A DNA stretch of 36,885 nt, taken from the NCBI GenBank assembly GCA_020627685.1, contig JAHDGK010000024.1, positions 1 through 36,885 on the forward strand, read 5' to 3'. Origin of the DNA: Granulosicoccus sp. Its GTDB lineage: Bacteria; Pseudomonadota; Gammaproteobacteria; Granulosicoccales; Granulosicoccaceae. Under the pieces are notes generated by a model. It worked only from the letters and a program-made list of their open reading frames with translations. It did no database searches and was not told the origin of the DNA. The position numbers were made by a program, and so were the translations under genes. Below are positions 22 to 21,127 of the stretch, piece by piece (position 1 is the stretch's first letter; every line of letters starts with the position of its first letter).

Positions 22-495
22 CTACCGTTCCGCTGCATGGATAGCGGTTTTTCGTAATAGCTTTGCTAGGGTTTTGCGTTCTGTTGGTGAAAGTGCTGCA
101 AGTATATTCTCTTGTTGAATGCTCATATGTTTGGCCACTTTTTTATGCAGCTTTCGCCCGCTAGACGTTATCGTGAGTTTCGAGCGGCGCCCGTCATCCG
201 GGTCTGGGGCACGCTCGATGTAGCCCTCCACAAGCATACGGTTGACTGCACGTGAAATGGAGTTTCGAGGTCGTCCAGTCAAACGCGATACGTCTTGTGC
301 TGTTAGTACCGGGAAGTGCGAGAGGCATAAAAGTAGTAAATACTCCGCTCTTATAATGCCGAAATCGCGCTTGATATCATCATAAGTGGGTACGATTATC
401 GCGCTGGTAACGTAGGACAGTAGCGCGGCATCCTGAAATTCCACGGTATCCAGAAATTCTGTTACGTCGGCGTATTGCGCTTTTCCGTCTGTCAT
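22..495 (-). CDS. MarR-family transcriptional regulator
   Basis: A 157-residue protein of normal MarR length. The central winged helix-turn-helix is visible: a helix around residues 64-80 (LTAQDVSRLTGR), the recognition helix RNSISRAVNRML, then the wing with the typical DPDDGRRSKLTIT pattern near residues 97-110. MarR proteins are dimeric cytoplasmic repressors, usually released by small aromatic or phenolic ligands. The gene diverges from the PanB/Rieske/GcvT-like operon that starts near 599, and the perfect inverted repeat at 571-592 lies in the shared control region. By context it probably controls that operon and perhaps itself. The ATG at 495 is the only sensible start, though no clear Shine-Dalgarno site precedes it. 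Family is sure; ligand and target are inferred. Confidence 0.93.
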   Translation of the reverse strand: MTDGKAQYADVTEFLDTVEFQDAALLSYVTSAIIVPTYDDIKRDFGIIRAEYLLLLCLSHFPVLTAQDVSRLTGRPRNSISRAVNRMLVEGYIERAPDPDDGRRSKLTITSSGRKLHKKVAKHMSIQQENILAALSPTERKTLAKLLRKTAIHAAER

Positions 496-570
496 TGAAT
501 TCTATGATTACAGGGTTCGTAGCTACCCTTTAGTGATTCACCCATTGTAAACCTTATTGAGAAATGAGAA

Positions 571-592
571 TATTGTTCCAAATGGAACAATA
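571..592. promoter_or_regulatory. Inverted-repeat operator, likely MarR-controlled
   Basis: A perfect inverted repeat: arm TATTGTTCCA, two-base centre AA, then the exact reverse complement of the arm, with 10-bp arms. It lies between the divergent MarR gene and the PanB-like gene, directly upstream of the start preferred here at 599. Size and symmetry fit a dimeric winged-helix repressor. Assignment to the MarR protein rests on position only. Confidence 0.7.
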
Positions 593-598
593 AAGGCG

Positions 599-1480
599 AT
601 GGCTAAATCGATGAGTGATAGAAAAAAGCTGACGATTCCCGAATTGGCCATAAAGAAAGCGTCCGGCGAGCGCTTGGTCATGGTTGCGGTCGGAGAGGCT
701 CTAACAGCCGCGTGGGCCGAAAGAGCAGGAGTCGATATAGTGGGTGTTGGCGATAGTCTGGGGATGACTTTGCATGGCCATGAAAATACCTTGGCTATGA
801 CTGTCGATCAAATGATCGATCATTGTAAGGCGGTACGTCGAGGCGCGCCAAACACCTTGAGCCTCGTATCAATGCCTTACGGTTCCTACGCAACTCCCGA
901 TTTGGCTGTTCTCAACGCAATACGCCTTATGAAAGAGGGGGGCGCTGAGGCGGTAAAACTCCAAGGAGGCCGCGAAATGTTTTCCATCATAAAAGCTGTC
1001 GCAGATGCTGGAGTTCCGGTCATGAGTCACGTGGGGTTGCTGCCGCACCGGGTACACACATTGGGAGGTTTTAAAATGCAAGGCCGTACCGCCACTGCTG
1101 CCATGGAAATCATTGATAACGCGTTAGCTATTGAAGAGGCGGGGGCTATTGGACTAGAGATCGAGGCAATGCCTTATGAGGTAGGCAAGGCGGTAGATGA
1201 TGCGGTCGATATCTTCACGTTTTCGATTGGTGCAGGCTCAGCAGGTACCTGCCAGTTGCTAAATGGATACGATTTAATTGGTGCTTTTGATTCGTTCAAA
1301 CCAAAGTTTGCAAAGCGCTACGGGAATATTGCGGAGGTAGCGACAAAAGCCTTTCAAGACTATGCGGCAGATGTTCGTAACGGAACATTTCCCGATGAAG
1401 ATCACAGTTATACGATGAGCCCCGAAGAGATAGCCAAGCTTGAAGTAATGCTTGCACAAAAAGAGTCAAAAAGAGATTAG
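599..1480 (+). CDS. PanB-like hydroxymethyltransferase paralogue with altered metal site
   Basis: About 293 residues; clearly the ketopantoate hydroxymethyltransferase fold along its full length (VGVGDSLGMTLHGH, LLPHRVHTLGGFKMQGR, KPKFAKRYG, and FPDEDHSY near the C-terminus). Classical PanB adds a hydroxymethyl group from methylene-tetrahydrofolate to 2-oxoisovalerate using Mg2+. Aligned by eye to E. coli PanB, Asp45 (here D52), Lys112 (K120) and the base Glu181 (E189) are kept, but metal ligands Asp84 and Glu114 become S91 and Q122. This suggests another substrate or reaction, not pantothenate synthesis. It is the first gene of an operon with Rieske and GcvT-like genes, 2 bases before the next start. 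An upstream ATG at 557 would place the operator inside the gene, so 599 is preferred; 611 is also possible, and the ribosome site is weak. Confidence 0.85.
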   Translation: MAKSMSDRKKLTIPELAIKKASGERLVMVAVGEALTAAWAERAGVDIVGVGDSLGMTLHGHENTLAMTVDQMIDHCKAVRRGAPNTLSLVSMPYGSYATPDLAVLNAIRLMKEGGAEAVKLQGGREMFSIIKAVADAGVPVMSHVGLLPHRVHTLGGFKMQGRTATAAMEIIDNALAIEEAGAIGLEIEAMPYEVGKAVDDAVDIFTFSIGAGSAGTCQLLNGYDLIGAFDSFKPKFAKRYGNIAEVATKAFQDYAADVRNGTFPDEDHSYTMSPEEIAKLEVMLAQKESKRD

Positions 1481-1482
1481 CG

Positions 1483-2568
1483 ATGGATACCCAACCAATC
1501 TACCCCATTGGACAGCGCATACCGAACGGCATGCTTGAAGATAACTACCCGCGCAATATGTGGTGGGTCGCTGCGTTAAGAGAGGAAGTGACCGAGAAAC
1601 CTCTAGCACGATGGTTATTAGAAACGCCGGTAGTTCTGTACCGAACCGAAAACGGTGATACTGCAGCGATGTATGATCGATGTCCGCACCGATGGGCGCC
1701 GCTAAGTGAAGGGCATGTCGATGGATCTCGAATTATTTGTCCGTACCACGGCATGCAGTTCGATACCAAAGGCAATTGTGTCAAAGCGCCTACCCAACAA
1801 ATGACGCCTAAGTCTGCACAGATTCCTTCCTATGAAACGAGAGAAGCTGGCGCTTACGTATGGATATGGATGGGAGATCAGTCTGCCATTGATTGTGAGC
1901 CGCCAGACGTGAGTTATCAAACTGATCCTAACTGGACCTTTATGTCCGGGTACTATGATGTTGCGGTTAATTGGGTCCTGGTGCGCGAGAATGTTTTGGA
2001 CTTAACGCATATTCCGTTTCTTCACGCGAATACGTTTAAACAAAATGATTGGGTGACAGCTCCCGAGACTTATATGGATGGCGACACTATATGCTATGAG
2101 CAGGAGTTTGATTTAGCACCACTGTCACCGCTGTTTTGCGCGGGTATGGGTTTACCTGAAGACAAGCCTATAAAACGCAAGCAAGTGGGGCGCATGCCGA
2201 CGCTTGCAGTTTCATTTTCCGACTGGATGGTACATGATCCGCAGCCCGAATCCGGTCGGAGGAGTGACTTCGTGGTGAGAGGGTGTCATATAGTGACGCC
2301 TGCGCAACGTGGTCGAACCCATTACTTTTGGGGAGCGGCTTTTGATGTGCCTGAATTAAGCGATGAAGTCATAGAAAAAACCAGCAAAAATGTGGTGGCT
2401 GCGTTTGATGAAGACAAAGATCTGTTGGAAAAAATGCAAACTCAAATTAGTAATGATCCACGCGGTTTGAATTACTTAGAAGTTACTTTGGGTGCTGATG
2501 GAGCGGGTATAAAAGTACGCCAGGTATTGAACAAAAAGTTAGAGGCGGAAGGGCGTTCATTAAAATAG
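1483..2568 (+). CDS. Rieske non-haem iron oxygenase, VanA-like
   Basis: A 361-residue oxygenase component. The N-terminal Rieske domain has C67-P-H69 and C86-PY-H89 as [2Fe-2S] ligands. The catalytic domain has the mononuclear-iron motif around residues 170-181 (ENVLDLTHIPFLH), with D173 as the probable bridging Asp and H176 and H181 as Fe ligands. Size and layout fit the single-subunit alpha type of vanillate O-demethylase VanA and related aromatic O-demethylases or monooxygenases. No ferredoxin or reductase partner (VanB type) is encoded in this window, so electrons must come from elsewhere. It sits between the PanB-like and GcvT-like genes, suggesting that oxidative removal of a methyl or other C1 group is part of this pathway. 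Substrate unknown. Confidence 0.9.
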   Translation: MDTQPIYPIGQRIPNGMLEDNYPRNMWWVAALREEVTEKPLARWLLETPVVLYRTENGDTAAMYDRCPHRWAPLSEGHVDGSRIICPYHGMQFDTKGNCVKAPTQQMTPKSAQIPSYETREAGAYVWIWMGDQSAIDCEPPDVSYQTDPNWTFMSGYYDVAVNWVLVRENVLDLTHIPFLHANTFKQNDWVTAPETYMDGDTICYEQEFDLAPLSPLFCAGMGLPEDKPIKRKQVGRMPTLAVSFSDWMVHDPQPESGRRSDFVVRGCHIVTPAQRGRTHYFWGAAFDVPELSDEVIEKTSKNVVAAFDEDKDLLEKMQTQISNDPRGLNYLEVTLGADGAGIKVRQVLNKKLEAEGRSLK

Positions 2569-2605
2569 GCATTTGAACATACGAGTATCGTTAAGAGATA
2601 AACCC

Positions 2606-3709
2606 ATGGCAGAGATCGGCCCAAACACACGATTACGTGTATCACCCTTTTATGAAGCCACCCTTAGCGAGGGTGTAACAGCGTTTTCTCCATACAACAG
2701 CATGTTGATGCCGGTGTCCTATGGAAACCCAAGTGCTGAATATGACCGCTTGATCAACGGTGTTAGTCTTTGGGATGTGGGTGTTGAAAGACAAGTCGAA
2801 TTAAATGGCCCCGATGCTGCCCGGCTGGCTCAAGTTCTCTGTGCTCGCGACATATCCACTTGCTCGGTCAATCAGGGAAAGTATGTTCCTATGTGTGATC
2901 ATCGTGGTGTTCTTATCAACGACCCTATTGTTCTCAAAATATCTGACGACTGTTACTGGCTGTCTATTGCCGATAACAATGTGATGTTGTGGGCACGTGC
3001 TATAGCTCAAGAGCGTAACCTTCGCGTTGATATACACGAACCCGATGTATCCCCTCTCGCTGTTCAAGGTCCGAAAGCAGAAGATGTACTGGTTTCTATG
3101 TTCGGAGAACAAATAAGGGACATAAAGTTTTTTTGGTTTATCGACGCCGAGATAGATGGAATACCGTTAAAGATAGCCAGATCCGGTTATTCCAAGCAAG
3201 GCGGATTTGAGTTGTATCTGATGGACGGTTCGCGCGGAACAGATCTTTGGAATAAGGTGCGTGAGGCGGGCGCTCCTTGGAATATTGGTCCGGGTAATCC
3301 AAACCCTGCTGAACGCATAGAAAGTGGATTACTCTCGTATGGCGGAGATACTGACGATCAATCCAATCCGTTTGAAGTACGCTTGGATAACTACGTCGAT
3401 ATTGATTTGGATAATGACGTCGTTGGTATTCAGGCTCTTCGTGCAGTTAAAGAAAGGGGGCCCGTCCGGCATCAACTCGGGATCAAAATAGAGGGTCACG
3501 CGAACACGCCGGGTCATCACCGTTGGTATGACATTTACGCCGATGGTGAATCAATTGGCAGTATGACCAACGGCATCTGGTCACCTCGCTTAAAGCAGTT
3601 TATAGGCTTTGCGCTCGTTGAACGTCGTTACAAAGCTGGTGATACGGTTACCGTGAACAAAGAAGGTATCTCTGTTTCGGGCACCCTGTGTGAATTGCCG
3701 TTTATTTAA
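2606..3709 (+). CDS. GcvT/DmdA-like folate-dependent C1 transferase
   Basis: About 367 residues. Matches the aminomethyltransferase (GcvT) superfamily: an N-terminal region with SLWDVGVERQVELNGPDAA and the C-terminal signature RIESGLLSYGGDTDD followed by a small beta-barrel domain (IGFALVERRYKAGDTVTV). Family members pass a methyl or methylene group to tetrahydrofolate; examples are glycine-cleavage T protein, DMSP demethylase DmdA and the aromatic O-demethylases LigM/DesA. There are no glycine-cleavage P or H genes nearby, so a demethylase role is more likely than glycine cleavage. The frame opens with a TTG at 2573, but an AAGAG ribosome site stands about 8 bases before the ATG at 2606, which is preferred. 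Co-transcribed with the Rieske gene. Confidence 0.85.
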   Translation: MAEIGPNTRLRVSPFYEATLSEGVTAFSPYNSMLMPVSYGNPSAEYDRLINGVSLWDVGVERQVELNGPDAARLAQVLCARDISTCSVNQGKYVPMCDHRGVLINDPIVLKISDDCYWLSIADNNVMLWARAIAQERNLRVDIHEPDVSPLAVQGPKAEDVLVSMFGEQIRDIKFFWFIDAEIDGIPLKIARSGYSKQGGFELYLMDGSRGTDLWNKVREAGAPWNIGPGNPNPAERIESGLLSYGGDTDDQSNPFEVRLDNYVDIDLDNDVVGIQALRAVKERGPVRHQLGIKIEGHANTPGHHRWYDIYADGESIGSMTNGIWSPRLKQFIGFALVERRYKAGDTVTVNKEGISVSGTLCELPFI

Positions 3710-3743
3710 ACTGAATTAACGGGGCCAATGCATGAGTAAAAGA

Positions 3744-3763
3744 GCGATGTCCTGAAGCATCGC
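3744..3763. other. Short hairpin between convergent genes
   Basis: Arms GCGATG (3744-3749) and CATCGC (3758-3763) enclose an 8-base loop. It lies in the 74-base gap between two convergent genes, where terminators are expected, but neither strand shows a U-run after it. Role uncertain. Confidence 0.3.
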
Positions 3764-3783
3764 GTAAGGGACGAGCCTGTTTA

Positions 3784-4539
3784 CTACTCAGCAGAGTCAG
3801 CCACAGAATAAGAAACAAGATCGTTCACTGTGATAGTTGCGTTCCGCCTTTCTATCTTCTGGATGTACTCGATCATAATGTTTGAATGTTCACGCATCAT
3901 GGACTCTGCACGAACAGCATCACCACTTTTAATCGCATCATAAATGACTTGATGTTGTGAATTTCCGATCTGTAAACGCAGCAGTCCCGTCTCTATCCTT
4001 TCAGTACTCTCAAACAAACTTCTGTCGAATACCATCGCGCCTACCGAAAGCATTGGCAAGTGTCGAATTTGCTTACAGGTAAGACTGACATAGTTGTTAC
4101 CGCAGGCATCTAATATGGTTGAGTGGAATACTTTGTTTGCCGCCAACATGTTTTGAATCATCGGCTCATCAATACGGCGTAATGCGAGTTGCTCATTAAT
4201 GGATTCGATTGCCTGAGCCATTTTGGGCAAGTACTTTTCACGCTCTGGTGACTGCGCCATCAGCCGGGCTGCCAAACTCTCTAGATGGCCGCGCACCTGA
4301 ACTGCCTGCAAGATATCGGCGACGGTCGGACTTTGTACGACGTACCCACGTCCTTCACCCCGATGGATTAAACCTTCGCTCTCGAGAGTTCTGAGTGCCA
4401 GGCGAATCGGAGTGCGCGATACCGAGTGGGTTTCGCACAGCCGGGATTCAGAAAGGCGTTCACCTTCTGCGTAGGTACCCAGAAAAATGTCGTTACGGAT
4501 TCGGGCTGCAAGTTCTGCATCAATTGGCTCCATCCCCAT
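3784..4539 (-). CDS. GntR-family (FadR/FCD) regulator of the TRAP operon
   Basis: About 251 residues. The N-terminal winged helix (IDAELAARIRNDIFLGTYAEGERLSESRL, then SRTPIRLALRTLESEGLI) is typical GntR; the rest is an all-helical FCD ligand domain with metal-type positions in NKVFHSTIL and MREHSN. FCD regulators sense small organic acids or sugars and usually repress a divergent transporter or catabolic operon, as here. Three copies of a GGGATCC-centred palindrome lie at 4550-4700 between it and the DctP gene, so it probably represses both directions. The longer frame begins at a TTG (4590) and would read through the first palindrome; the ATG at 4539 (or 4533) leaves the operator in the leader and is preferred. 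Ligand unknown. Confidence 0.9.
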   Translation of the reverse strand: MGMEPIDAELAARIRNDIFLGTYAEGERLSESRLCETHSVSRTPIRLALRTLESEGLIHRGEGRGYVVQSPTVADILQAVQVRGHLESLAARLMAQSPEREKYLPKMAQAIESINEQLALRRIDEPMIQNMLAANKVFHSTILDACGNNYVSLTCKQIRHLPMLSVGAMVFDRSLFESTERIETGLLRLQIGNSQHQVIYDAIKSGDAVRAESMMREHSNIMIEYIQKIERRNATITVNDLVSYSVADSAE

Positions 4540-4740: not shown

Positions 4741-5751
4741 ATGAAGCTTATTCAAATTTGCAGAAATACGGTTGTAGCCATTGGATTGACGTTATCAGCG
4801 GCGAATGTCCATGCAGAGGAGCTGACAGTAGCTACCTTTGTTCCCCCTCAACACCATACCAACACTGTGATGTTTAAGTGGTTTGGCGAAGAGTTGGCTA
4901 AACGCTCGGGTGGATCATTAACAATGAAGCTTTACCCGGCAGGTCAATTAGGAGCAGGTCCCGTACAGCAATACAAGCGGGCAGTGGAGGGCGTTGCTGA
5001 CATTACCTTTGGTGTCGCTGCTTATACCCCGTCAATATTTCCAAAAACCATGCTGGCTATTCCACCTGGAAAGGCGGAGAGTTCCACTGAAGCCACTGAG
5101 CGAATGCTCGCGGTCTTTGATCAATACCTTGCTGATGAATTCAAAGACGTCAAGGTTATCGGTCTGACGACCGCTGCCGGAATTGGAATAGCCGCGACTC
5201 GTGATATGTCAACACTTGAAGGCATGGCAGGTGCCAAGGTGGTTCCTTATGCAGCACTGACCTCGCCGATCATTGAAGCAATGGGTGCAACCCCGGTTCA
5301 AATGCCCGTGACGGAAATGTACACCGGTCTTAGCACGGGCACGATAGACGGTACCTATGCGACTTATAACAATATGACACCTCCCTGGAATTTCTGGGAT
5401 GTAGCGACGCACTTTGTCACCAATGTTCCCGTGCAGCACGCTGTCATTTTTGTGGTGATGAATAAGGAGCGATACATGGGTCTTAGCGACGAGCACCGTG
5501 CCATCGTAGACGAGCTGGCCATGACTGAGTCATCAATGAAATTGGCCGAAAGCTTTGACGGTGCTGATGAGCGTTCTCTTAAGATGATGAGCGAAACCGA
5601 TGATAAGAAATACGAGCTTGTTGAAGTCACTGCCGAAGAACGTGCACGTATGGATGCAGCCGTTGCTGAAGGAATGAAGATCATCTTCGCGGACTACGCA
5701 GAGCGCGGCATCGAGAATGCGCAAGAGATCTATAACGCAATCAACCGGTAA
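4741..5751 (+). CDS. TRAP solute-binding protein, DctP family (copy 1)
   Basis: A 336-residue periplasmic binding protein with a signal peptide ending around residue 25 (LSAANVHA-EE). The DctP fold is recognised by LTVATFVPPQHHTN, the AGQLGAGP loop, GVADITFGVAAYTP, and the hinge region TGLSTGTIDG. It would capture the substrate and hand it to the DctQ/DctM permease downstream. The Arg that usually follows the GxKxR strand and pairs with a carboxylate in SiaP/DctP relatives is missing (the segment reads GAKVVPYAA), so the ligand may not be bound through a carboxylate in the usual way. First gene of a long operon, preceded by the operator cluster at 4550-4700. A paralogue follows after 15 bases. 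Confidence 0.95.
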   Translation: MKLIQICRNTVVAIGLTLSAANVHAEELTVATFVPPQHHTNTVMFKWFGEELAKRSGGSLTMKLYPAGQLGAGPVQQYKRAVEGVADITFGVAAYTPSIFPKTMLAIPPGKAESSTEATERMLAVFDQYLADEFKDVKVIGLTTAAGIGIAATRDMSTLEGMAGAKVVPYAALTSPIIEAMGATPVQMPVTEMYTGLSTGTIDGTYATYNNMTPPWNFWDVATHFVTNVPVQHAVIFVVMNKERYMGLSDEHRAIVDELAMTESSMKLAESFDGADERSLKMMSETDDKKYELVEVTAEERARMDAAVAEGMKIIFADYAERGIENAQEIYNAINR

Positions 5752-5766
5752 TCGAGGGATTTCATC

Positions 5767-6786
5767 ATGACACTCACCACTTTTTTGAAAGCTACCGTTG
5801 CCTCAGCTGTTATCGGGTTGTCGGCTCAGACTGTATCGGCTGAGGAACTCTCAGTAGCGACGTTTGTACCGCCTAGCCATGAGACTGTGACGGGTGCGTT
5901 GGCCTGGTTTGAACGTGAGATCACCGAGCGCTCTGGCGGAACGCTAACAATGAAGCTGTTTGCTGCTGGCCAGTTGGGAGCAGGTCCATCGCAGCAGTAC
6001 AAGCGTGTGATTGAGGGCGTGGCTGACATTACGTTTGGCATTGCAGCATCAACCCCGACACTTTTCCCTAAAACCATGCTGGCGATTCCACCGGGCAAAT
6101 CTATTGATGGCTTGGACTCCACCGAACGCATGTGGGCGGTGTTTGACAAATACATGGCCGATGAATGGGCAGATGTAAAAGTGTTGGCCATTGGAAATCC
6201 CGCTGGCGGCATGATCATCGCCACACGGGATGTTTCAACGATAGATGGGATGAAGGGTGCAAAAATTGTCCCTTTTGCCGCCATGACGACACCAGTTATC
6301 AAAGGCATGGGAGCGGTTCCGGTACAGCTGGATCCTACAGAGCACTACACCGGACTTAGCACCGGTACGATCGACGGCGCAGTATCCTCAATCAATAACA
6401 TCATGCCTCCGTGGAATCTTGATGAAGTTGCGGACTACGCAGTGCTCAATTCGCCTGCGACGTTTAATCCAGTTTACTTTGCTATGAATAAAGAGCGTTA
6501 TGAGAGCCTGAGTTCAGAACATCGAGCGATCATAGATCAGATCTCCGGGTTGCCGTTTTCGATGGAACTTGCGCGCTCTTTTCATGAAGCCGATCAAGCC
6601 GCACTGGAGTGGGTCAAAGAGCAGCGTGCCTCGGATCAGCTGAACGTTGAGTGGATTACGGTTTCTGACGAAGAAAGAGCAAAGATGGAAACTGCCGCGG
6701 CCGAAGGCATGGCGCAGATCTATGAAGACTATGCCGCACGTGGAATCGATAACGCGCGGGAAATTTATGAAGCACTTAACCAATAG
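5767..6786 (+). CDS. TRAP solute-binding protein, DctP family (copy 2)
   Basis: A 339-residue tandem paralogue of the preceding gene; by eye about half the residues are identical, including AGQLGAGPSQQYKR and PKTMLAIPPGK. The signal peptide ends around residue 25 (QTVSA-EE). A GAGGG ribosome site precedes the ATG. Like its twin it lacks the carboxylate-binding Arg (GAKIVPFAA). The hinge stretch TGLSTGTIDG is kept, while the segments after it differ most (about residues 205-260). This fits two binding proteins with different specificity serving one DctQM permease. Ligand unknown. Confidence 0.95.
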   Translation: MTLTTFLKATVASAVIGLSAQTVSAEELSVATFVPPSHETVTGALAWFEREITERSGGTLTMKLFAAGQLGAGPSQQYKRVIEGVADITFGIAASTPTLFPKTMLAIPPGKSIDGLDSTERMWAVFDKYMADEWADVKVLAIGNPAGGMIIATRDVSTIDGMKGAKIVPFAAMTTPVIKGMGAVPVQLDPTEHYTGLSTGTIDGAVSSINNIMPPWNLDEVADYAVLNSPATFNPVYFAMNKERYESLSSEHRAIIDQISGLPFSMELARSFHEADQAALEWVKEQRASDQLNVEWITVSDEERAKMETAAAEGMAQIYEDYAARGIDNAREIYEALNQ

Positions 6787-15352: not shown

Positions 15353-15952
15353 ATGACTTTAAAAGTAATCGGCACGGGCTTCGGCCGCACCGGTACTGAT
15401 TCAATGCGCGTAGCGTTGAATCAATTAGGAGTAGGTCCCACACATCACATGACTTTGATTAATGAAGTCACTGGTGCTCGCGATCATTGGCTAAAGCTTG
15501 TGAACGGTGGTGTTCCAGATTGGGATGTGCTTTTTCGTGGATACAATTCGTGTGTTGATTGGCCATCGGCGTTTTACTGGCGCGCTATTGTTGATGCCTA
15601 TCCGGACGCTAAGGTACTGCTGACCATGCGACCTGCCGAAAGTTGGTGGAAGAGTTTCGAGGCAACGATACTCAAGCACATAATGGGTAGCGACGATTTA
15701 ACCGGGTTCTCACATCGTCTGGTTGCGCAACAAGTATTTCATGGCCGCCCCCATGATCGGGAGCACGCCATTTCAGTCTACCAACAGAATGTTAAAGACG
15801 TTTTGGCGTATGTGTCGCCAGAACGTTTGCTAGTCCATAATTTGGGCGACGGTTGGGAACCTCTGTGTCAGTGGTTAGATGTGCCAACACCGGAAACTCC
15901 GTATCCGAACGGAAACACGACCGAAGAGTTCAATCGTCGTATATCCAGTTAA
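15353..15952 (+). CDS. Sulfotransferase family protein (Sulfotransfer_4-like)
   Basis: A 199-residue PAPS-type sulfotransferase-fold protein. The 5'-phosphosulfate loop is GTGFGRTGTDS (residues 7-17) and the 3'-phosphate site is LLTMRPAESWW (R93, S97). The family transfers sulfate from PAPS to a hydroxyl; the substrate is unknown. It is the last gene of the operon beginning at 4741, 2 bases after the permease stop. Its stop codon shares four bases (TTAA, 15949-15952) with the stop of the convergent alkylsulfatase-like gene. A sulfotransferase next to three sulfatase-type genes suggests the compound is handled as a sulfate ester, either remade for trapping or signalling, or the enzyme acts on another acceptor. 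Confidence 0.85.
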   Translation: MTLKVIGTGFGRTGTDSMRVALNQLGVGPTHHMTLINEVTGARDHWLKLVNGGVPDWDVLFRGYNSCVDWPSAFYWRAIVDAYPDAKVLLTMRPAESWWKSFEATILKHIMGSDDLTGFSHRLVAQQVFHGRPHDREHAISVYQQNVKDVLAYVSPERLLVHNLGDGWEPLCQWLDVPTPETPYPNGNTTEEFNRRISS

Positions 15953-17244
15953 TCTTCAGCTTCCATTTCTTTTGCATAGGTCAAGCAGTAGTGTCTGGCA
16001 GTGCAGTTTATTTGTTGTCCGGCAAGCTCTTTCAGGAGCTTCGCTTTCACAGCCTTTGCCTTGTTAATTTCTTCTTGTTTATTGTCATCGTCAAGAAACA
16101 CTATGCGATCAATTAGTTGAAGCGCCCATTGAAGATCCCCTTTGTCATGAGCCTCTTCAGTGGCTCTGAATAACGCATCGACACCGCCTATCAGCGCGAT
16201 AAAACGCTCTGCCTCATCTCTAGGGGAGAGCGTGCCAAGCGACGTAGGATTTCCATCAAACCAGCCTAGAGTTCCAACACAGTAGGCACGGACGGACCAA
16301 TCTATACGTCCATAGTATTCACGTAGGTGGGGTTTTGAAGCGAGGTTCTCGGGAAGTTTCACCGAGTGTGCAAGTTGATCGATGGTGTAGCCCGCATTCA
16401 TACCTTCACGGGTTTCTGTCACCACGTGCCTGATAGCATCTCGGTAGTCGCTTAATACGGATTTTATTTCGCCGGCGTCTGTCAGAGCTTTGGTATGTCC
16501 GGGGGCCAACACCTCGGCATTAAATTCGATTAGCAGGTCGATGGTGTCAGCCCAGGTATCAAAATCCCGATAAACAGTTCCACGGATGGCGTACAGATTT
16601 GGAAATGATCTGTAAAAGTTGTCGCCGCAAAATAGAATCTTTTTATCCGGGTACCACACCACGATATGATCAGGTGTCTCACCAGGTGCCCGAACAAGCT
16701 TCAGATCAATACCGCAGATACTGAGTTCTTCGCCTTCGTCACCAATTTTGCGAGTGGGTGGCAGGTTACCTTGCCCCAGTCCTTTCATAGGTCTATCTCC
16801 GGGACCGACACCTATCCCGATAAACTCGTCTGGGTAGTTCAAACCAATTCCGAACTGGCGCTTGGTTCTTGCCTGCATCGCTTTAGCCGGTATGGGGTGC
16901 TTTGATGCGACTGCCAGAAAATCATCTGAGTATCGAGTGCTAGCGAGGATATCTGGGTTATCGGCCTCGGCGAATACAGACGCGCCGGACACATGATCAC
17001 GGTGAGAGTGCGTGTAGATGATGGTATCTACGGGCAGATCTGTTATTTGACGAAATTCGGCAAGTATATTTTCAGCGGCCCCAATGGACTCGCTGGTGTC
17101 AATAATGATGACCCCGGTATCACCGATGATCATATAAACATTTGAGGCCGCGAATCCGAAGGCTTGATAAACATTGTCCGCAAGCTGCACGATTTCCTTG
17201 CTGAAGTAAGCCGGGTGTTTTAGTAATTCTGGGTGTGTTTGCAT
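15949..17244 (-). CDS. Metallo-beta-lactamase-fold alkylsulfatase-like hydrolase (copy 1)
   Basis: About 431 residues. N-terminal metallo-beta-lactamase domain with the dizinc motif THSHRDH (H79, H81, D83, H84), then APGETPDH, LFCGDNFYRSFPNLYAIRG and PGHT. The LYxIRG...RD..W pattern and the later helical segment (DKGDLQWALQLIDRIVF) match the SdsA1/BDS1 alkylsulfatases and their dimerisation domain. Those enzymes are about 650 residues and end in an SCP2-like domain, missing here; their GEN metal motif reads GDN. Hydrolysis of a sulfate ester is likely, the exact substrate unknown. An AAGGAAG site precedes the ATG at 17244; a longer frame reaches 17295, into operator site 4. It diverges from the GST/sulfatase operon. 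Confidence 0.85.
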   Translation of the reverse strand: MQTHPELLKHPAYFSKEIVQLADNVYQAFGFAASNVYMIIGDTGVIIIDTSESIGAAENILAEFRQITDLPVDTIIYTHSHRDHVSGASVFAEADNPDILASTRYSDDFLAVASKHPIPAKAMQARTKRQFGIGLNYPDEFIGIGVGPGDRPMKGLGQGNLPPTRKIGDEGEELSICGIDLKLVRAPGETPDHIVVWYPDKKILFCGDNFYRSFPNLYAIRGTVYRDFDTWADTIDLLIEFNAEVLAPGHTKALTDAGEIKSVLSDYRDAIRHVVTETREGMNAGYTIDQLAHSVKLPENLASKPHLREYYGRIDWSVRAYCVGTLGWFDGNPTSLGTLSPRDEAERFIALIGGVDALFRATEEAHDKGDLQWALQLIDRIVFLDDDNKQEEINKAKAVKAKLLKELAGQQINCTARHYCLTYAKEMEAED

Positions 17245-17283
17245 CTGATTCTTCCTTTTTCTCAAATGTATCAGATTTGACAT

Positions 17284-17297
17284 TTTGGGATCCATAA
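17284..17297. promoter_or_regulatory. GGGATCCC operator, site 4
   Basis: TTTGGGATCCATAA, one complete half-site and a degenerate second half, 40 bp upstream of the alkylsulfatase-like gene on the minus strand. Its centre is exactly 63 bp from site 5, the same spacing as sites 1-2 near the GntR gene 12.7 kb away. Confidence 0.6.
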
Positions 17298-18168: not shown

Positions 18169-19821
18169 ATGAGCACAGAAAAAGCACAGAAACGCAAAAA
18201 CGTACTGTTCATTATGTGCGACCAACTCAGGTTTGATTACCTGCGTTGTTGTGGGCACCCAACGATAAAAACCCCCAACATTGATGAACTGTCAAAAAAA
18301 GGCGTGAGATACAGCAACGCTTATTGTCAGTCCCCTATATGTGGCCCATCAAGGATGAGTACCTACACCGGCAGGTATGTTTCCTCACATGGATCGGCCT
18401 CAAATTTTGCCCCCTTAAGAATTGGTGAACGAAATATCGGCCATCATTTGAATCCTCTGGGCGTGCGAACCGTACTGGTAGGTAAGACACATATGGTTGC
18501 CGACCAGGAAGGTATGCGCCGATTGGGAGTCGACGCTAACAGCGAAATCGGAATACACCACGCGCAGGCAGGCTTCGAAGCATATGAGCGCGACGACGGT
18601 ATACACCCGGACTCAATGGTAAAACCCAATTTGGCCTATAACGAGTATCTGAAATCAAAAGGGCACACAGAAGATGACAACCCTTGGCACTGGGCGGCTA
18701 ATTCGGTCGAAACCGATGATGGTGTACGTTCTGGATTTTTCAACGATGAGGTTGACAAGCCAGCAAGGGTCTCAGACGAGGAATCTGAAACCCCTTACAT
18801 GACGCGAAAGGCTATGCAGTTTCTGTCTGAAGATGATGGTGAAACTCCTTGGCTCCTACATTTGTCGTATATCAAACCGCATTGGCCGTATGTTGCTCCA
18901 GCGCCATACAACGATATGTATAGTGCAGCCGATGTTCAGCCGGTTATAAGATCAGAGGAGGAACTCAAAGACACTAACCCGTTGATGAAGCTGTTTATGG
19001 AACGCGTAGCAGGGCAGACATTCAGCGAAGAAGAAGCTCGAGAAAAAGTTATTCCCGTCTATATGGGGCTTATAACGCAGATAGATGATCAGTTAGGTAT
19101 TTTGTTTGAGTTTATGCGCGAACGAAATCTACTGGACGACACCATGATCGTGTTCACATCAGATCACGGTGACTACTTTGGTGATCATTGGATGGGGGAC
19201 AAAGATTATTTCCATGAACCTTCCGTCAAGGTGCCATTAATCATTGTTGACCCTTCACAAGAGGCCGACAACACACGCGGTACTGTAGATGAATCACTTG
19301 TTGAGCTCATCGATCTGGTGCCAACTTTTATTGACTACTATGGTGGTGATTCGCCTAAAAATATTGTCGACGGGCGCTCGCTCCTGCCAAAGATTCACAG
19401 CCAAGATACTGAATGGCGAGAGTATGCCATTAGTGAATACGATTATTCTTGTCAGGTATTTCGCCCTCAAACCGGCAAGCAGCCATTGGACTGTCGCTCG
19501 TATATGGTGGCAACCCGTGAGTGGAAATTAGTGCACGCGCCTGGCTACCCACCGGTGTTGTTTGATTTGATAAATGACCCGGAAGAACTCACTGATCTTG
19601 GGCGCACTCCTGAGCATGAAAGCGTTCGTCAATCGCTGTTCAATTTGTTGGCTGAATGGTCCTTGCAATACCGGCAACGCGAAACCTGGTCTGAAGAGCA
19701 CAATATTAAAATGACAGGTATGGAAGAACAGCTAGGCGTTCTTATTGGTTATTGGGACGAGAAGAGCGCAGAAGGCAAGGATCCGAAAATATTGCCTGTA
19801 AGAAAACCAAAAAATTCTTAA
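18169..19821 (+). CDS. Formylglycine-dependent sulfatase (alkaline phosphatase superfamily)
   Basis: A 550-residue type I sulfatase. The N-terminal metal-binding MCDQLRFD and the signature SPICGPSRMSTYTGRY are clear; Cys58 in CGPSR would be converted to formylglycine by a maturase not encoded in this window. Metal residues D332-H333 are in FTSDHGDYFGDH. The family includes aryl- and choline-sulfatases and phosphonate monoester hydrolases. No signal peptide is seen, so it probably acts in the cytoplasm after TRAP uptake. It sits between a GST and an alkylsulfatase paralogue, giving two different sulfatase chemistries in one operon. Substrate not determined; a small sulfated organic is my inference. 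Confidence 0.93.
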   Translation: MSTEKAQKRKNVLFIMCDQLRFDYLRCCGHPTIKTPNIDELSKKGVRYSNAYCQSPICGPSRMSTYTGRYVSSHGSASNFAPLRIGERNIGHHLNPLGVRTVLVGKTHMVADQEGMRRLGVDANSEIGIHHAQAGFEAYERDDGIHPDSMVKPNLAYNEYLKSKGHTEDDNPWHWAANSVETDDGVRSGFFNDEVDKPARVSDEESETPYMTRKAMQFLSEDDGETPWLLHLSYIKPHWPYVAPAPYNDMYSAADVQPVIRSEEELKDTNPLMKLFMERVAGQTFSEEEAREKVIPVYMGLITQIDDQLGILFEFMRERNLLDDTMIVFTSDHGDYFGDHWMGDKDYFHEPSVKVPLIIVDPSQEADNTRGTVDESLVELIDLVPTFIDYYGGDSPKNIVDGRSLLPKIHSQDTEWREYAISEYDYSCQVFRPQTGKQPLDCRSYMVATREWKLVHAPGYPPVLFDLINDPEELTDLGRTPEHESVRQSLFNLLAEWSLQYRQRETWSEEHNIKMTGMEEQLGVLIGYWDEKSAEGKDPKILPVRKPKNS

Positions 19822-19834
19822 TTGAGGTATTCAG

Positions 19835-21127
19835 ATGAACCCGCATGTTGAGCTTGTTGCTCAAAATAAGCAGTTTGAAAGGCAAGTAATAGAACTTGCA
19901 CCCGATGTCTTCGGGGCAATAGGTTTTGCTGCCTCAAATGTGTACATGATTATCGGTGATGAAGGGCTGATCATCATCGACACGACGGAAACAACCAAGG
20001 CTGCTGAAAATATTCTCGCTGAATTTAGAAAGATAACCAGCAAGCCGGTAACCACGATTATCTACACCCATTCACATAGGGATCATATTAGTGGTGCAAC
20101 CGTTTTTGCCGAGGGTAACCAGGTTGAAATCATCGCCAGTGATAATTTCGAATCTGATTTAGTCGCTATTGACGATAGACACCCCAGTCCTAATAAGGCA
20201 CTGATGGCCAGAACAAAACGACAGTTTGGGATGGGGCTTAGTTTCCCTGACGAACGCGTTAGCGTCGGCGTCGGTCCGGGTGATCGACCAATGCAGGGTA
20301 TGGGTGCAGGGTACATTGAACCTACGGTTCTAATGCATGATGCTCAAACCAGTATTAGCCGCGACGGTATTACGTTAAGTTTGGTCAAAGCACCGGGAGA
20401 AACGCCCGATCACCTCGTTATTTGGTACGACGAACGTCAAATGCTTTTTTGCGGGGACAACTTCTATTCATCATTCCCGATGCTTTACGCTATACGCGGC
20501 ACCGCTTATCGTGACTTCAATGCGTGGGCGGACTCACTCGATTTGTTGCTAGAGTTCAACGCGTCAATATTAGCGACAGGTCATACGATGCCTGTTGTTG
20601 GTGCTGAAGAAGTCAAAGCTCGCTTAAGCGACTATCGAGACGCAATAAAATCACTGGTTGCACAAACGGTCGATGGAATGAATCAACAGCTGGGCCCGGA
20701 TGACTTAGCCCATAGCGTTAGTCTTCCGCCTGAGCTTGCCAATAAGCCTTATCTGAAAGAATTTTATGGAAAGGTTGCGTGGTCTGTCAGAGCTTATTTT
20801 GCAGGTACCTTGGGGTGGTTCGATGGAAATCCCACCAATTTAGCGCGGTTGTCTTCAAAACAAAGGGGTGAGAGAACCATTCAATTGGCAGGCGGTGCAG
20901 AGCAGTTACTGAAAATAGCTGAAGATGCTGCAGCTAGTGATGATCATCAATGGGCATTGGAATTGAGCGATCATTTAATCGCTGTCAATGAACAAGCTGT
21001 GGCAGCCAAGCGCTTGAAAATTTCGGCCTTGCGCGCAATGGCCGACTTAGAAATCAACGCCGCCGGGCGTAACTACTATTTGTTGTCAGCCAAAGAAATG
21101 GAAGAATCGTTGGAGGGGCAGGTATGA
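19835..21127 (+). CDS. Metallo-beta-lactamase-fold alkylsulfatase-like hydrolase (copy 2)
   Basis: A 430-residue paralogue of the divergent gene at 15949-17244, collinear in length and motif positions: H79, H81, D83, H84 (THSHRDH), E189 in APGETPDH, D208 in CGDNF, H250 in ATGHT, then LYAIRG...RD..AW. The C-terminal helical region (DDHQWALELSDHLIAVNEQAVAAKRLKISALRAMADLEINAAGRNYYL) matches the alkylsulfatase dimerisation domain. The SCP2-like C-terminal domain of SdsA1 is absent. Thirteen bases follow the sulfatase stop, with a GAGG ribosome site. The stop overlaps the next start by 4 bases (ATGA), so it is coupled to the double-OsmC gene. Confidence 0.86.
   Translation: MNPHVELVAQNKQFERQVIELAPDVFGAIGFAASNVYMIIGDEGLIIIDTTETTKAAENILAEFRKITSKPVTTIIYTHSHRDHISGATVFAEGNQVEIIASDNFESDLVAIDDRHPSPNKALMARTKRQFGMGLSFPDERVSVGVGPGDRPMQGMGAGYIEPTVLMHDAQTSISRDGITLSLVKAPGETPDHLVIWYDERQMLFCGDNFYSSFPMLYAIRGTAYRDFNAWADSLDLLLEFNASILATGHTMPVVGAEEVKARLSDYRDAIKSLVAQTVDGMNQQLGPDDLAHSVSLPPELANKPYLKEFYGKVAWSVRAYFAGTLGWFDGNPTNLARLSSKQRGERTIQLAGGAEQLLKIAEDAAASDDHQWALELSDHLIAVNEQAVAAKRLKISALRAMADLEINAAGRNYYLLSAKEMEESLEGQV

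Follow-up and report, generated by a model that had tools for sequence, protein, structure and literature searches.

A rare PanB-fold subfamily with replaced metal-site residues and a matched oxygenase is a candidate for a new, possibly catabolic, reaction

We describe a group of proteins with the fold of ketopantoate hydroxymethyltransferase (PanB), referred to here as PanB-star, in which two acidic residues of the PanB active site are replaced throughout one clade, and whose gene has a matched oxygenase partner. PanB-star is a PanB-fold enzyme but is not to be called PanB, because its set of metal-site residues is incomplete and panC was not found in its own genome. The clade, the residue changes, the matched partner and, in three loci, a palindrome common to PanB-star and an importer are direct observations. 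As a tentative reading, held as a real possibility rather than an expectation, we propose that PanB-star is a dedicated catabolic aldolase-type enzyme on the PanB fold, acting with the oxygenase and likely with a folate acceptor.

The window, i.e., the whole stretch of 36,885 nucleotides that was analysed, comes from a Granulosicoccus sp. genome and carries the following features:

22..495, minus strand: MarR-family regulator (PF12802/PF01047), divergent from PanB-star
571..592, no strand: palindrome TATTGTTCCAAATGGAACAATA, a predicted MarR operator, between the MarR gene and PanB-star
557..1480, plus strand: PanB-star, a PanB-family protein with D84S and E114Q in E. coli numbering (PF02548, residues, clade, fold)
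1483..2568, plus strand: Rieske oxygenase with Rieske and VanA_C domains (PF00355, PF19112; Pfam), 6 bases after PanB-star
2573..3709, plus strand: GcvT/DmdA-like folate-domain protein (PF01571, PF08669)

The PanB-star open reading frame covers 557-1480 on the plus strand only if a TTG start is used; judging from where homologues begin, ATG 599 or ATG 611 is the likelier start. PF02548 was the sole Pfam family found and matched the full length of the frame (292.9 bits), and the five solved chains matched by HMMER are all PanB (alignments shown for four of the five). An AlphaFold model, built from an alignment of 24 relatives with a mean pLDDT of 83.4 (residues 68-71, 73-77 and 164-170 poorly predicted), shows the PanB fold, with 1m3u as a fold-level match at Z 30.0, rmsd 2.6 over 236 residues. 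By both fold and family, PanB-star groups with PanB.

HMMER and MAFFT place E. coli D45, S46, D84, K112, E114 and E181 at residues 66, 67, 105, 134, 136 and 203 of the frame, or 52, 53, 91, 120, 122 and 189 counted from ATG 599, where the letters are D, S, S, K, Q and E. This bears out an earlier note on this DNA, which had aligned the protein by eye and read Asp84 as Ser91 and Glu114 as Gln122, with Asp45, Lys112 and Glu181 kept; the structure prediction and PanB alignment that it suggested as a check upheld both the PanB fold (1m3u, Z 30.0) and the changed residues. Positions 45, 84 and 114 are those which we take to be the PanB metal positions (UniProt/HAMAP). Where PanB has Asp45, Asp84 and Glu114, PanB-star keeps Asp45 and has Ser and Gln at the other two. 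Lys112 and Glu181, which we assume to be among the role-bearing residues of PanB, are both present, and this holds in 42/42 relatives.

Residues were counted in a MAFFT alignment whose 82 rows, E. coli PanB among them, include 42 from the clade and 33 for comparison; the seven rows of a third PF02548 group, marked by the motif VSDTGG, were excluded from the counts. Position 114 is Gln in all 42 clade rows and in none of the 33 comparison rows, which uniformly have Glu. Position 84 is Ser in 21 clade rows, Ala in 13 and Cys in 8, against Asp in 33/33 comparison rows, while D45, S46, K112 and E181 are kept in 42/42. Further changes run through the whole clade (42/42 each), namely the loss of Tyr25, Thr23 to Ala or Ser and Gln142 to His, and Val214 is Asn in 32 of the 42. 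In the tree the 42 relatives make up a single clade (support 100/99), and the remaining PanB rows fall outside it. Read from the alignment, the replacement of D84 and E114 is a feature of the subfamily as a whole and not a chance or one-off event, because Gln114 occurs in every clade row and in no comparison row. The letter at position 84 does not strictly follow the tree, with four changes under label A (including one mislabel, L018) and three under label B; L018, a comparison row, reads Gly in the pairwise and Asp in the multiple alignment. The tree kept 81 of 111 matched sequences, after removal of those that were contained, identical or shorter than 200 residues; sequences with a stop entered only as the part after it, and midpoint rooting was used for drawing only. 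L058, which reads D/E in the pairwise comparison, was dropped beforehand.

After PanB itself, the ICL/PEP mutase superfamily is next in fold similarity to the PanB-star model, its best member being 2-methylisocitrate lyase at Z 18.2 vs 30.2 for PanB chains, so that PanB-star is not closer to these enzymes than to PanB. The resemblance lends itself to another reading, in which PanB-star would be a folate-independent lyase or hydrolase working on a hydroxylated acid in the style of isocitrate lyase or PEP mutase; the altered residues 84 and 114 and the missing Tyr25, by which canonical PanB features are removed, would agree with it. PanB is much nearer in both fold and sequence, however (1m3u Z 30.0; PF02548 only), and Lys112 and Glu181 are kept in 42/42, and we consider this reading rather unlikely.

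The own genome (99.5% complete) holds a single PF02548 gene, PanB-star itself, so the term paralogue used in the earlier note does not apply within it. Neither the second, normal panB that the note suggested looking for next to panC nor panC itself (pantoate ligase, PF02569) was found there; the pathway was judged by panC alone. With no other panB and no panC, a role of PanB-star in pantothenate synthesis in its own genome is therefore very unlikely. Among 16 other carriers of unstated completeness, panC was present in ten and not found in six. A separate PF02548 gene scoring above 340 bits occurs in five of the 16, adjoining panC in four (G063, G065, G066, G069) and lying on another contig in G071; in G067 a split PF02548 gene adjoins panC, and G059 and G072 have panC together with a second full-length PF02548 gene at 283 and 274 bits. 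By the earlier note, the lack of another panB in the genome would refute its proposal. No other panB is present, but the observation does not carry this weight, because the genome also lacks panC and because a separate PF02548 gene above 340 bits does occur in five of the 16 other carriers.

That PanB-star is an ordinary, diverged PanB making ketopantoate is nonetheless suggested by the NCBIfam panB equivalog model, which accepts it (259.6 vs a cut-off of 207.55 bits), by its standing as the sole PF02548 gene of its genome and by G060 and G070, which have panC and no second full-length PF02548 gene (completeness unstated); since these two genomes have panC in this setting, PanB-star may serve pantothenate synthesis there. 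Set against this are the panC results in the own genome and in six of the 16 other carriers, the separate panB beside panC in four carriers and the split one in a fifth, and metal positions changed in 42/42, and we regard ordinary PanB activity as highly improbable.

Relatives were sought in a collection of genome contigs, in the own family and in the orders to which the genomes G065, from Pseudophaeobacter, and G071, from Hyphomicrobiales, belong. The search in the order of G065 used an E limit of 1e-90 and scored no more than 5 to 7 first-look candidates per genome, and that in the order of G071 an E limit of 1e-85 with at most 8. Carriers numbered 8 of 341 genomes in the order of G065, 8 of 297 in that of G071 and 5 of 48 in the own family, and their labels include Chromatiales, Rhodobacteraceae, Rhodospirillaceae and Acidimicrobiales, among others. 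PanB-star is thus rare and scattered across lineages, and transfer from lineage to lineage is likely behind the scatter. Its loci divide into three main contexts, namely that of the window (A), that of SAR116 and its relatives (B) and that of the order of G071 together with a Methylobacterium nodulans plasmid (C). Plasmid matches came to 230 records, all below 60% identity, with 40 of them listed, and three records were examined: the M. nodulans gene is a member of the PanB-star clade, while those of Aminobacter and Sulfitobacter have Asp/Glu at 84/114 and adjoin panC. The third PF02548 group (VSDTGG) occurs in the own genus and family (L073-L077, L080, L081, L101, L102); both acidic residues, Asp84 and Glu114, are retained in it, its scores lie at 266-272 bits, and it makes up a clade of its own (seven rows, support 100/100) outside that of PanB-star.

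The second gene of the window has the families of both the Rieske cluster and the catalytic domain (PF00355, PF19112), with the motifs CPH..CPYH and DLTHIPFLH in its sequence, and its nearest solved chain is dicamba O-demethylase 3gb4 (E 1e-44, residues 22-354). PanB-star and the Rieske gene occur in identical genomes, 8 and 8 of 341 and 5 and 5 of 48; the Rieske search of the 341 used an E limit of 1e-70 and scored at most 5 to 7 candidates per genome, and the 341 genomes of the PanB-star, Rieske and GcvT-like searches were taken as one set on the strength of the same handles and number. Forty-five loci were compared, 43 of them with PanB-star and two (L101 and L102) with the third PF02548 group. 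The Rieske gene is present in 20, and in 20/20 loci with both genes the two are same-strand neighbours; in G027 the Rieske gene sits at a contig end, away from PanB-star.

An oxygenase-type gene, of one of four fold kinds, lies in the stretch around PanB-star in 41 of the 43 clade loci, a raw count without a random-gene baseline. A TauD-type gene follows PanB-star in nine loci (Pfam on L047). PhyH-type genes stand directly after it in L044, with a second one behind, and before it in L045, while L035 and L055 have a fatty-acid-desaturase-type gene with a Rieske ferredoxin. Eight loci of branch C carry an FA_hydroxylase-like gene, which is a weak match in L111 (38.2 bits vs a cut-off of 31) and is annotated as a sterol desaturase in L090; it lies near PanB-star, but in L117 it is about 6 kb off on the opposite strand. 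This gene was found in 7/7 branch-C genomes and in 2 of the 290 remaining genomes in the order of G071. No oxygenase was found among the neighbours examined in L042, and L100, which ends at a contig edge, has none within its stretch.

Dicamba O-demethylase is of the formaldehyde-releasing type, and as the nearest solved relative of the Rieske partner it raises the alternative that PanB-star captures formaldehyde from an oxidative demethylase, onto folate or a keto acid, as local detoxification. Formaldehyde could also be the common product of otherwise unrelated oxygenases, and according to PMC4433239 a Filomicrobium methanesulfonate cluster has a GcvT gene and a gene that is PanB by annotation. 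Against such a trap, the match of one Rieske subfamily in 13/13 genomes suggests a common carbon skeleton instead. Formaldehyde and THF, moreover, reportedly condense spontaneously, which is the subject of one study. We judge formaldehyde capture unlikely.

The third gene is related to DMSP demethylase (DmdA) but scores below the NCBIfam cut-off for that enzyme (379.5 vs 410 bits); its nearest solved chain is 3tfh (E 2.4e-84), which we take to be DmdA. A GcvT-like gene is present in 18 of the 45 compared loci. Close relatives occur in 13 of the 341 genomes, i.e., five of the eight PanB-star genomes and eight without PanB-star, in a search with an E limit of 1e-120 and at most 5 to 7 candidates per genome, which misses a more distant type (36-40% identity) that stands beside PanB-star in L031, L032, L035, L038 and L041. 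The GcvT-like gene is a loose and non-obligate partner of PanB-star.

Several other observations were made in the neighbourhoods. At 4741-6786 the window has two tandem TRAP-type solute-binding genes (336 and 339 aa, one cluster), followed by one DctM, and L095 shows the same surroundings, made up of clusters for DctM, aldehyde dehydrogenase, GST and SDR. In L093 an SBP56 protein (2561-3910, minus strand; 692.7 bits) closes a run of PanB-star, Rieske, PhyH, GcvT and HpcH genes, and its cluster, c60, is also found in L041; the SBP56 family includes methanethiol oxidase. Elsewhere in the window, a sulfatase has an alkyl-sulfatase-type metallo-beta-lactamase protein on either side (15949-17295, minus; 18169-19821 and 19835-21127, plus), and a long protein at 32532-34385 matches QuiC 3-dehydroshikimate dehydratase at 529.6 bits vs a cut-off of 1200, its second half being 4HPPD-like.

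The core of the palindrome in the window (573-590) has no other exact match there. In 14 of 30 loci a palindrome of the form TTGTTCCnnnnGGAACAA, with a TTCC-n-GGAA core, lies at most 180 bases upstream of PanB-star, and a relative of the window MarR gene stands beside PanB-star in 15 of the 30. The core is present in 13 of these 15 MarR-bearing loci; of the other two, L038 has an imperfect palindrome, and in L045 the site is ahead of the PhyH gene that precedes PanB-star. In L096 the core is there but no clustered MarR gene is, and the remaining 14 loci have neither. The palindrome is probably the MarR operator. In L032, L044 and L093, which are the three of these loci to carry one particular TRAP importer cluster, the palindrome also precedes a TRAP solute-binding gene, in a form with one or two mismatches, 21-65 bases from the called start and twice in L032 and L044. 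A scan gave 20 sites in 18 loci, one of which, in L038, has no such gene nearby. Because the palindrome precedes both genes in L032, L044 and L093, TRAP import and PanB-star are probably under a common regulator there. Between L044 and L093 the solute-binding proteins share 82.5% identity, and the solved relatives of the L093 protein include, with many others, binders of keto acids and of lactate. The palindrome was not found at the same TRAP cluster in L112 and L117 (branch C), nor at the TRAP genes of the window (4741 on, beside a GntR gene).

A forward reaction, in which PanB-star would hydroxymethylate a new acceptor and the oxygenase would process the product, has in its favour that this is the direction of PanB itself and that adjacency alone does not give the order of steps. 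The importer linked by the palindrome in three loci and the DctM, aldehyde dehydrogenase-like and HpcH/HpaI neighbours suggest breakdown instead, and we hold the forward reaction to be improbable.

According to PMC7770189, PanB forms a metal-aided enol of a keto acid and then adds the carbon of CH2-THF. The catabolic aldolase reading counts in its favour the 42-row clade, the kept and changed residues, the absence of panC, the co-occurrence with the Rieske gene, the oxygenases, the palindrome-linked TRAP genes and the reaction of PanB itself, an aldol addition to a keto acid with folate as carbon donor. What we infer for the substrate, the hydroxymethyl intermediate, the direction, folate and the altered metal use of PanB-star is that the oxygenase would oxidise a small organic acid, most simply from methyl to hydroxymethyl, and that PanB-star would then cleave a C-C bond of the product in a retro-aldol step. 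The oxygenase would be the Rieske enzyme in the window and one of the 2-oxoglutarate, fatty-acid-desaturase or fatty-acid-hydroxylase type in the sister branches. PanB-star would hand on the one-carbon unit, most likely to tetrahydrofolate as methylene-THF, in a pocket that would work with the usual acidic residues missing from metal positions 84 and 114. Taken further, the two enzymes could form a module for oxidative C-demethylation, with methyl of a small acid turned into hydroxymethyl, the carbon removed by PanB-star as methylene-THF and different branches recruiting unrelated oxygenases to the first step; such a module appears somewhat doubtful to us.

Several findings stand against the catabolic reading, namely that the GcvT-like gene is not obligate, that L042 and L100 were seen without an oxygenase, that the TRAP palindrome occurs in just three loci and is lacking at L112, L117 and the window TRAP genes, and that G060 and G070 have panC and no second full-length PF02548 gene. 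The earlier note had proposed a new reaction in the PanB family, perhaps a retro-aldol release of a C1 unit to folate. The clade, the active site, the oxygenase and the absence of panC sustain its first part, in that PanB-star is not an ordinary PanB and another reaction is probable; the substrate, direction and folate use stay conditional, although the proposed release would fit the family chemistry and the GcvT-like neighbour.

An account of this subfamily was not found in the openly licensed PubMed Central literature, nor was a PanB relative tied to homarine by title or abstract. Homarine, trigonelline and methanesulfonate were weighed as substrates and not adopted. PMC4814558 offers general background on PanB, and PMC5068391 has no bearing on the gene. 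As NCBIfam panB models accept PanB-star, a genome that lacks panC may be counted as a partial maker of vitamin B5. The search for new reactions on a well-studied fold gains a concrete candidate in this subfamily, which also offers a clean test of PanB-type chemistry without acidic residues at 84 and 114. Its substrate is open to direct search, because PanB-star is accompanied by a matched oxygenase and a recognisable palindrome, which in three loci also stands ahead of an importer.

Compared with known systems, PanB-star is most like ketopantoate hydroxymethyltransferase (EC 2.1.2.11; 1m3u, 1oy0, 3vav), with which it has in common the fold, PF02548, Asp45, Ser46, Lys112 and Glu181; it differs in the replacement of Asp84, Glu114, Tyr25, Thr23 and Gln142 in 42/42 and in its context, with an own genome without panC and a matched oxygenase partner. 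With the ICL/PEP mutase superfamily, e.g., 2-methylisocitrate lyase, it has a TIM-barrel fold in common (Z up to 18.2), but this match is far weaker than that to PanB (Z 30) and Pfam gives PF02548 only. The third gene resembles DmdA/GcvT folate proteins, 3tfh being its closest solved chain, but at 379.5 bits it falls under the DMSP demethylase cut-off of 410. The Rieske partner, finally, has the Rieske and VanA_C domains of DdmC, the oxygenase of dicamba O-demethylase (3gb4), and unlike DdmC it stands beside PanB-star in 20/20 loci that hold both.
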